64,000 nt of DNA. Origin: Chitinophagaceae bacterium (GTDB taxonomy: Bacteria > Bacteroidota > Bacteroidia > Chitinophagales > Chitinophagaceae). The first letter of the stretch is position 1, and every line of letters begins with the position of its first letter. The position numbers and the translations under genes were made by a program. Location: positions 1-64,000 of the forward strand of contig SEAD01000009.1 of the NCBI GenBank assembly GCA_004173355.1. Direction: 5' to 3'. This document shows positions 1 through 20,303 of the stretch, piece by piece. The notes below the pieces were generated by a model. The model was not told the origin of the DNA, ran no database searches, and was given only the letters and a program-made list of their open reading frames with translations.

Positions 1-67
1 GACATAATATTATGTAGGGTTTAAAAAAGGGATGGCAAAAATAGGGGAAATCTGCTTATGAACAAAT

Positions 68-76
68 TGTGGAAAA
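68..76 (-). promoter_or_regulatory. DnaA box, TTTTCCACA
   Basis: + strand reads TGTGGAAAA; matches TTWTNCACA. Confidence 0.55.
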
Positions 77-503
77 CCGCTCAAATTCCCTGTATTTAAG
101 CGCTTGAGCGGATTCCGGACCATCAGTTCCTGGTGTTTTAATGGCCTTGTTTTATCCGTGTTTTATTTCCACCCCCATATTACAGCGTTTTTACTGGACG
201 TGCAACATTAATAAGCAGTTATCACCAGTTTTTCCGCAACCGCTCCTGTATATTATAGTAGGTACCTCCGGCAATCAATCGAACCTGTACTATACTTTTA
301 CCCATGAACCGGTGGTTTCGCTGCACCGGGACGGTGAAATCAACCGGATCATCCTGCTGGATACCCTTCGAATCCGGGGAAGCAAAATGATCCGGGCGAC
401 AAAACACCAGAACCTGAGCCGGTAAAAACCCCTACATTATGTTTTATACCCATCCGTTTGCCGTGAATTTCCACACAACGGGCTGTGCATATCACCCGAT
501 ACC

Positions 504-512
504 TGTGGATAA
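504..512 (-). promoter_or_regulatory. DnaA box, exact consensus TTATCCACA
   Basis: + strand reads TGTGGATAA. Confidence 0.7.
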
Positions 513-942
513 GCGGCTGTGGAACGTTAACATGAAACAGCATTCATGGGCAGTAATTCACGTCGGGAGGAAATCCGGGACGATGCCGGTGCTGATCTTG
601 TAGTTTATCCGACCAGTATCCACATCCCCCCATTTGATTCGGACGCAGTTTCTGTTCCCAATGTTCCGTGCACATGGATGTGGATATACCGTCCTGATAC
701 AGCATGGACGGGAAAGATCGATGTGGATTAAACATGAAAAAATGTGAATACCGGGAAAACAATATTTTTGCAGCAGAAGTTTTCAACGAATCCACAGCTG
801 TAATAATAATAAGTTCTTTTTTATAAAATTGTATTAATACTATTAGTACTTAAGGGAAGGCAAAAAAATAAATTGTTTTGAAAAATTCAGGAAGCTGTTG
901 GAATATTGCCCTCTCGATAAAAGAGCGACAAACTCACGGCAC

Positions 943-1953
943 ATGAACACCCAATCTTTTTCCTCCGCTGTCTCGAATGTTGAATCAAAAGGTTTCCTCG
1001 ATATCGAGCTGGATCCGGAGCTGGATCTGTTTGCTGCTATCGAGCAGCTCAAAAAAGAAAAAAATGCGGTGGTACTGGCGCACTACTACCAGGAGCCGGA
1101 TATCCAGGACATTGCCGATTACATCGGCGACAGTCTTGGCCTCGCCCAGCAGGCGGAAAAAACCGAAGCAGACATGATCGTTTTTGCAGGCGTGCACTTC
1201 ATGGCGGAAACTGCCAAGATCCTCAACCCTGCCAAAAAAGTCGTCATACCGGATTTCAAGGCGGGTTGTTCACTGAGCGACAGCTGTCCGCCCCCGCTGT
1301 TCAAAACTTTTCGCGACCAGCATCCCGACCATGTGGTGGTAAGCTATATCAACTGCAGTGCCGGTATCAAGGCACTCAGCGATGTGATCGTGACCAGCAG
1401 CAATGCCAAGGTAATCGTGGAAAGTTTCCCGAAAGAGCAGAAAATTATTTTTGCACCGGATAAAAACCTGGGTGCCTGGATCAACAAGGTAACAGGTCGC
1501 AATATGTTGCTCTGGAACGGTGCCTGCCAGGTGCATGAAATCTTCAGCCAGGAAAAGATCAGCCGCCTGAAGATCCGCCATCCGAAAGCAAAACTGATTG
1601 CGCACCCGGAGTGTGAGGAACCTATCCTGAAAATGGCGGATTATATCGGTTCCACCACCGGATTGCTCAAGTTTTCCCAGACAGACGACAGCCAGGAATA
1701 TATAGTAGCAACCGAAACAGGCATCCTTCACCAGATGATTAAGGCAAATCCCTTCAAAACCTTCATACCTGCGCCACCGGATAACAGCTGTGCATGTAAT
1801 GACTGCCCGCACATGAAACGTAATACACTGGAGAAAATCTACCTGTGTATGAAATACGAAACGCCGGCAATTCACATGGATGAAACCCTGAGGCTGGCAG
1901 CCAGAAAACCGATCGACCGGATGCTCGAAATCAGCGCCCAGGCAGGTCTATAA
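943..1953 (+). CDS. nadA: quinolinate synthase NadA
   Basis: ORF 898-1953, ATG at 943; [58 protein letters not shown] motifs. Confidence 0.95.
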
Positions 1954-18128: not shown

Positions 18129-19991
18129 TCATCTGCCCATAAATACCATGAGGATCTGCACGTCGCTTGGATTAATGCCTGAGATCCGGCTGGCCTGTCC
18201 GAGTGTACGCGGACGGATCCGGTGAAGTTTTTCCCGAGCTTCGCTTCCCAGTGATTGTATTTTTTTGTAGTCGAAGCTTTCAGGTATTTCCAGGTTTTCA
18301 AGCTGGCTCATCCGGCTGACCAGCTCTCTTTCCTTTTCGATATAGACATCATATTTGATCTGGATGGAAGCCTGTTCGATTGCTTCCTTGCTGAATTGAT
18401 CCAGTTTCGATTTCAATTTTTCAGTCGCCGTTATCATTGCCGGCAGGTCCACGTCCGGACGCAATAATATTTTCTCCGATTTCTGTTTTTCCAGGATCGG
18501 GGAAGATCCCAGGGTTGCCAGGAACGGATTGATTTCGGATGGTTCAAAACTTATTTCTTTCAGCAGGGCTTTGATCTGTTCCACTTCGGCTTTTTTCGCC
18601 GTGACCCGATCCATCCTTTCCTGCGATGCAAGACCGAGTTTATAACTGAGTTCGGTGAGCCTGCTATCGGCATTGTCCTGGCGAAGCAATGTACGGTACT
18701 CAGCCCTCGAGGTGAACATCCGGTACGGCTCTTCCGTTCCTTTGCTGATCAGGTCATCGATGAGTACGCCTATATAGGCCTGGCTTCTCTCGAGAATCAC
18801 CGGCGCCAGCTCTTTCACTTTCTGGTGCGCGTTAATTCCTGCCATCAGTCCCTGGCAAGCAGCTTCTTCGTATCCCGTTGTTCCGTTTATCTGGCCGGCA
18901 AAAAACAGCCCTGATATTAGTTTGGTTTCTAATGTGTGACGTAATTGTGTTGGCGGGAAATAATCATACTCGATGGCATACCCTGGCCGGAAGATCCGGA
19001 CATTCTCAAAACCCGGAACCGTACGAAGTGCTTCGTATTGAACATCTTCCGGTAATGATGTCGAGAACCCGTTTACATAAATCTCTACCGTGTTCCATCC
19101 TTCGGGTTCGATAAAGAGCTGATGCCGATCACGTTCTGCAAACCGGGAGATCTTATCTTCAATGCTGGGACAATACCGTGGTCCTACCCCATCGATCCGG
19201 CCCGCATACATCGGGCTCCGGTCAAACCCGGTTTTTAATATATCGTGTACCTGCTGGTTTGTATACGTGATCCAGCAACTACGCTGCTGTTTTGGTTTGA
19301 CGGTGTCAGTATACGAAAACCCGGTCATGTCATCATCACCCGGTTGCTCTTCCATTTTCGAATAGTCCAGGCTCCTGCCATCAACCCTTGGCGGGGTACC
19401 CGTTTTCAACCGGTCACTTTCAAACCCAAGTGAAACCAGTTGTTCCGTAATACCCGTTGCCGCTTTTTCCGCAGCGCGACCCCCACCAAAATTTTTTTCA
19501 CCGATATGGATGATTCCGTTCAGGAATGTTCCGTTGGTCAGTACCACTGCTTTTGACCGGATCTCATGACCTAGTCCGGTAATTACACCTTCGGCTTTAC
19601 CCTCCTTTATTACCAAGCCTTTGACCATATCCTGGTAAAAATCGACATTCGGGGTATTCTCCAGCATTTCCCGCCACTTCGTGGCAAACATCATCCTGTC
19701 GCTTTGTGCCCGGGGGCTCCACATCGCCGGACCTTTTGACCGGTTCAGCATTCGGAACTGGATCATTGATTCATCTGTGACAATGCCTGAATAACCGCCC
19801 ATCGCATCAATCTCACGCACAATCTGGCCTTTCGCTATCCCACCCATTGCCGGATTGCAGCTCATCTGTGCGATGGTCTGCATATTCATGGTCACAAGCA
19901 GGACTTTCGACCCAAGATTTGCCGCAGCAGCCGCAGCTTCACAGCCCGCATGCCCTGCGCCTACTACAATTACATCATAATCTGGAAACAT
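18129..19991 (-). CDS. mnmG: tRNA uridine-5-carboxymethylaminomethyl(34) synthesis enzyme MnmG (GidA)
   Basis: MFPDYDVIVVGAGHAGCEAAAAAANLGSKVLLVTMNMQTIAQMSCNPAMGGIAKG...; the listed ORF extends to 20135 but the conserved start is at 19991. Confidence 0.96.
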   Translation of the reverse strand: MFPDYDVIVVGAGHAGCEAAAAAANLGSKVLLVTMNMQTIAQMSCNPAMGGIAKGQIVREIDAMGGYSGIVTDESMIQFRMLNRSKGPAMWSPRAQSDRMMFATKWREMLENTPNVDFYQDMVKGLVIKEGKAEGVITGLGHEIRSKAVVLTNGTFLNGIIHIGEKNFGGGRAAEKAATGITEQLVSLGFESDRLKTGTPPRVDGRSLDYSKMEEQPGDDDMTGFSYTDTVKPKQQRSCWITYTNQQVHDILKTGFDRSPMYAGRIDGVGPRYCPSIEDKISRFAERDRHQLFIEPEGWNTVEIYVNGFSTSLPEDVQYEALRTVPGFENVRIFRPGYAIEYDYFPPTQLRHTLETKLISGLFFAGQINGTTGYEEAACQGLMAGINAHQKVKELAPVILERSQAYIGVLIDDLISKGTEEPYRMFTSRAEYRTLLRQDNADSRLTELSYKLGLASQERMDRVTAKKAEVEQIKALLKEISFEPSEINPFLATLGSSPILEKQKSEKILLRPDVDLPAMITATEKLKSKLDQFSKEAIEQASIQIKYDVYIEKERELVSRMSQLENLEIPESFDYKKIQSLGSEAREKLHRIRPRTLGQASRISGINPSDVQILMVFMGR

Positions 19992-20137
19992 GCCGGCAAA
20001 GTTAATGCAAAAGCATGGGCACGTCAGGTAAAAGAGGTGGGGTTTCTTGTGGCTCGTTAGTACTCCTGTATGTTTTGACTTACCAGCCCGCGTCATCAAG
20101 TGTGAAGATCTGGTCAACCCGTGCCTACTTCCCATGT

Positions 20138-20153
20138 TGTTCCACGTGGAACG
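20138..20153. promoter_or_regulatory. parS: parS-like centromere site 1
   Basis: TGTTCCACGTGGAACG; perfect 14-bp palindrome GTTCCACGTGGAAC. Confidence 0.85.
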
Positions 20154-20216
20154 AGCTGGCCCCCGCAGCTACATAGACCCTGATATCAAGTTCTCGACAC
20201 TCAGACTCCTGCCGTT

Positions 20217-20232
20217 AGTTCCACGTGAAACA
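20217..20232. promoter_or_regulatory. parS: parS-like centromere site 2
   Basis: AGTTCCACGTGAAACA; near-perfect match to TGTTYCACGTGRAACA. Confidence 0.85.
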
Positions 20233-20287
20233 GTTCGGCAACGCGTTCAGTGCGTCAGGTAATAGAAAATCCTTTCCCAACTGAGTT

Positions 20288-20303
20288 TGTTTCACGTGGA
20301 ACG
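20288..20303. promoter_or_regulatory. parS: parS-like centromere site 3
   Basis: TGTTTCACGTGGAACG; near-perfect match to TGTTYCACGTGRAACA. Confidence 0.85.

Follow-up and report, generated by a model that had tools for sequence, protein, structure and literature searches.

The divergent intergenic region between ppiD and nadA in a Chitinophagaceae draft genome (positions 6-942 of the 64,000-nucleotide stretch analysed here, hereafter the window) is proposed to be the chromosomal replication origin, oriC, with a probability of about 0.95. This reading, already put forward in a preliminary description of the same DNA, is supported by a cluster of DnaA boxes, by a conserved basal unwinding system (BUS, a combination of DnaA boxes and DnaA-trios) that is unique in the genome, and by a switch of GC skew at the corresponding position in two relatives. 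The BUS of Bacillus subtilis is the model from which DnaA is inferred to bind here, to form a filament and to unwind the DNA (PMC6669920, PMC8287927). It is likewise probable, at a somewhat lower level of confidence, that the family as a whole shares one dnaA-remote oriC at ppiD-nadA, and that its near-invariant BUS (WATNCACA-N4-TAATARTAATAG) has been kept as a unit despite changes in gene neighbourhood.

Genomic context

The source genome is a draft of 5.36 Mb in 372 contigs. Contig C312 (68,934 bp) starts at window position 1, and its first 64 kb make up the window. By comparison of NadA proteins, the closest named relatives are Chitinophagaceae such as Terrimonas and Niabella. The nadA gene (quinolinate synthase; 943-1953, plus strand; Pfam NadA, 4.5e-121) is the usual right-hand neighbour of the proposed origin in the family. 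When a relative's ppiD protein, which carries SurA/PPIase domains, was used as query, the ppiD gene of the source genome was located at the terminus of contig C370. The final 119 bases of that contig are identical to window bases 1-119 (an assembler overlap), which indicates that the two contigs join and that ppiD, on the minus strand, starts at window position 5. The stretch before nadA is therefore non-coding, as had been stated, between ppiD running leftwards from position 5 and nadA running rightwards from 943. The assembly broke at the putative origin region, yet the sequence is present through the overlap. The S46 peptidase gene that occupies the left-hand position in Terrimonas was looked for in the source genome without success.

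The DnaA-box cluster

DnaA boxes cluster in the intergenic DNA before nadA, and such a cluster is one of the features by which a bacterial oriC is recognised. The preliminary description had listed an exact box, TTATCCACA, at 504-512 and a second box, TTTTCCACA, at 68-76, both on the minus strand, and both are where it placed them. Of its seven supposed one-mismatch variants of TTWTNCACA, those at 467, 484, 616, 679, 722 and 743 hold, but the last, at 788 (GAATCCACA), has two mismatches. Measured against TTATCCACA instead, the sites at 467, 484, 743 and 788 differ at two positions each; the first three of these are the weak boxes ATTTCCACA (467-475, plus), ATATGCACA (484-492, minus) and GTATTCACA (743-751, minus). 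The remaining boxes are GTATCCACA (616-624, plus), ATATCCACA (679-687, minus) and TAATCCACA (722-730, minus).

Five of the 25 sites in the window with at most one mismatch to TTATCCACA fall within the first 942 bp, where 0.30 would be expected (Poisson P 1.5e-5), a density about 17-fold that of the remaining window. Sites with at most two mismatches peak in the 400-bp bin that starts at 401, with nine against a window mean of 1.5 (sd 1.3). Box density, which had been suggested as a check, is indeed highest in the window at the ppiD-nadA locus. The exact box alone is not enriched genome-wide (20 occurrences versus 15 for a reversed control); single boxes are therefore no evidence, and the signal is carried by their clustering and by the DnaA-trios.

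The putative unwinding module

Positions 780-813 read TTTTCAACGAATCCACA-GCTG-TAATAATAATAAG and are followed by AT-rich DNA. Judged from sequence, this segment is very probably a BUS and the functional core of the region. It begins with a pair of boxes on the plus strand, a degenerate distal member, TTTTCAACG (780-788), which is TTATCCACT or TTTTCCACG in many relatives, and the proximal box GAATCCACA (788-796), which abuts the trio module. The spacer GCTG (797-800, plus; consensus SCCS) leads to the DnaA-trio track TAATAATAATAAG (801-813, plus; family consensus TAATAGTAATAG), and this to a predicted AT-rich unwinding element (814-850, plus), AT-rich in relatives as well. Such an element, adjacent to the boxes, is expected of an oriC. 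The AT-rich run reported beside the last box is thus real, at 797-850; moreover, it contains the trio track at a distance of 4 bp from that box, an arrangement conserved family-wide. A BUS has been defined as a DnaA box no more than 16 bp from at least three DnaA-trios (NAN) (PMC8287927), and the 4-bp spacer and four TAA triplets found here agree with this rule.

An origin should also occur once per chromosome. The pattern TCCACA-N4-TAATARTAATA has a single zero-mismatch match in the 5.36-Mb genome, all 17 other matches carrying three mismatches, and a sequence model of the BUS (R1) likewise has one match at E<=0.05.

By analogy with B. subtilis, DnaA encoded elsewhere would bind both the boxes at 467-751 and, at 780-796, the abutting pair. 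Starting at the pair, it would polymerise rightwards on the DnaA-trios of one strand (801-813), and the filament would stretch that strand and open the AT-rich DNA at 814-850, where the helicase would be loaded.

Conservation across Chitinophagaceae

Searches recovered nadA from 139 of 150 family genomes. A strict form of the module (a box with a terminal ACA or similar form, followed after 4 bp by TARTRNTART) is present in 71 of 83 family genomes (82 relatives plus the window), 36-172 bp before the start of nadA; the 71 include four loci whose boxes end in AACA (L089, L127, L128 and L140). The spacer is 4 bp in all 71 strict loci, a spacing that is built into the strict pattern, and a search allowing spacers of 3-6 bp returned 4 bp in nearly all loci. 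Among the 12 loci outside the strict set, six have variants of the module, judged by eye (L099, L118, L125, L143, L149 and L150), L100 has a more diverged form, and five have no module beside nadA (L095, L101, L109, L142 and L144). Conservation of the module, the spacer and the box cluster spans dozens of genera.

In the family loci, boxes gather in the 500 bp before the module, at preferred places and on preferred strands. When sites with no more than one mismatch are counted, the density immediately before the module rises to 0.94 per locus per 50 bp, compared with about 0.02 in the flanks. The window boxes at 504, 616, 679 and 722 coincide with places preferred in relatives. For example, a minus-strand box recurs near the place of the exact box at 504-512 (37 minus-strand sites in 71 loci in the bin from -300 to -250), the boxes at 616-624 and 679-687 keep position and orientation, and the bin from -100 to -50, which corresponds to the box at 722-730, holds 67 minus-strand sites in 71 loci. 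The outlying box at 68-76 lies outside the conserved 500-bp cluster; several relatives have TTTTCCACA near ppiD.

Sixteen genomes, either with no nadA found or with a nadA that has no module beside it, were scanned with a 42-nt model of the module sequence. The model matched in 12 of them (E 1e-8 to 2e-3), the match in G108 being weak and covering part of the model only, and gave no match in the other four, in which nadA was not found or lies elsewhere. As judged from translations alone, the module adjoins a ppiD-like gene in six genomes in which nadA was not found (G135, G017, G068, G052, G083 and G119). In five others, in which nadA lies elsewhere, it is near peptide-ABC-transporter genes, with a PHA-synthase-like gene opposite in four. 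These five genomes are G001, which carries a Taibaiella contig, its congener G095, and G093, G031 and G116; the loci concerned (L184, L189, L185, L167 and L191) are candidate origins with an altered gene neighbourhood. The five relocated nadA genes are without the module. Since the module usually stays where nadA has been lost or has moved, it is not a nadA control element.

Across the class, R1 gives many weak matches (E 0.002-0.05) that resemble AT-rich noise, and outside the family only those in three other Bacteroidia families (f17, f19 and f21) look real. These weaker matches (L158, L162, L159, L160, L163 and L164) have different neighbours, again from translations: an acyl-CoA-synthetase-like gene in f17, genes for a large membrane protein and an rpiB-like product in f21, and GNAT, nadD and metK-like genes in f19. 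They are candidate oriC sites of those families.

GC skew, dnaA and parS-like sites

GC skew was sampled in two closed relatives (G022 and G112), with twenty 20-kb samples each and a fit to a two-arm model. The best-fit origin is at 640,001 in G022, with the BUS at 640,197, and at 3,223,001 in G112, with the BUS at 3,222,809; as sample boundaries were set near nadA, this agreement to about 200 bp is no measured precision and the resolution is about 5 kb. Both fits outscore all 100 block permutations. In G112, a few of the 20-kb samples contradict the two-arm model. The skew switch anticipated near position 500 is therefore borne out at the orthologous module of these relatives, to within about 5 kb, but not within the window itself, where the cumulative minimum lies near 10 kb. 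Window skew is mostly positive rightwards, and only the right side can be read there, the contig ending at the left edge of the element. Local skew is more positive on the right in 61 of 68 family loci, a figure that is confounded by the divergent genes and is not relied on; the no-module control set of this family profile took in loci with AACA-type boxes.

The dnaA gene of the source genome is on another contig (C277), in agreement with the description of the region as lacking an adjacent dnaA, and the proposed origin is not of the dnaA-linked kind. No box with at most one mismatch occurs in 3.5 kb around this gene. In G022 and G112, dnaA is at 2.54 Mb and 1.45 Mb, which is 1.4 and 1.8 Mb from the module round the circle. 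The closed chromosome of G107 starts at dnaA (position 409), about 0.74 Mb round the circle from the module that this genome carries beside nadA. A second, short match to the DnaA domain was seen on a small contig of the source genome (G000:C369:252-533, L002; E 2.6e-4); its product is possibly an Hda- or DnaC-like AAA+ protein.

The three parS sites noted about 19.5 kb away are parS-like and near-palindromic, with two or three mismatches. They start at 20138, 20217 and 20288 (20138-20303, plus strand), directly upstream of mnmG (18129-20135, minus strand), and none of 100 shuffles yields three. Sites of this kind are usually near origins, and they back the oriC reading as supporting context only.

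Alternative explanations

The site is the promoter region of two divergent genes, and in many relatives about 20-30 bp separate the end of the module from nadA. A role in regulating nadA and/or ppiD could be considered, with boxes for DnaA as a transcription factor and an AT-rich promoter, but seems improbable. The module is kept where nadA is absent or elsewhere (at the E-values given above), its neighbours in five genomes are peptide-ABC-transporter and PHA-synthase-like genes, neither nadA nor ppiD, the five relocated nadA genes do without it, and it marks the skew switch in both closed relatives. Regulation of nadA or ppiD by DnaA may occur as a side effect.

DnaA-box clusters can also titrate DnaA without initiating replication, and a datA-like cluster of this sort would leave oriC elsewhere. 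A trio track and an AT-rich element after the last box would be unexpected at a titration site, however, and the only full BUS match in the genome, at the place where skew switches in the relatives, makes this explanation very improbable. Still less credence can be given to the idea that box-like words have clustered by chance in AT-rich intergenic DNA. The lack of genome-wide enrichment of single exact boxes would fit such an accident, but the probability calculated for the cluster within the window speaks against it, and the fact that so many genera have kept the module, its spacer and the box cluster already refutes it. The oriC reading is thus preferred.

Implications

No description of a ppiD-nadA origin was found in open-access papers, and DoriC may hold predictions for single species. 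The type of oriC is known; the family-wide map of a dnaA-remote origin anchored at ppiD-nadA may be new. With it, oriC could be located by sequence in Chitinophagaceae genomes, drafts included: the rule is to look for the ppiD-nadA interval or for a match to the 42-nt BUS model. If it is true, closed genomes rotated to dnaA, as G107 is, have the wrong zero point. It also supports the view that a bacterial origin is defined by its module of box, spacer and trios, not by the genes around it. For a phylum in which genetic tools are scarce, it provides a small fragment that can be tested for sustaining plasmid replication.

Comparison with known origins

The oriC of Escherichia coli lies between mnmG/gidA and mioC. 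The proposed origin resembles it in being remote from dnaA and in having a DnaA-box cluster beside an AT-rich unwinding region. It differs in that mnmG is about 17 kb off, not adjacent, and in that the unwinding element follows a trio layout.

The closer parallel is with B. subtilis, in which the oriC BUS consists of DnaA-box 6/7 and DnaA-trios with the consensus 3'-GAT-5' (PMC6669920, PMC8287927). Both have a DnaA-box pair, a short GC-rich spacer, a run of 5'-TAR-3' triplets and then AT-rich DNA, with more boxes upstream. Unlike the B. subtilis BUS, the one proposed here is located between ppiD and nadA, away from dnaA, and its box pair is degenerate, with a one-base overlap. A BUS has been predicted in 1755 of 2070 DoriC origins (PMC8287927), and the Chitinophagaceae module has the same composition: a box, a spacer of at most 16 bp and at least three NAN trios.
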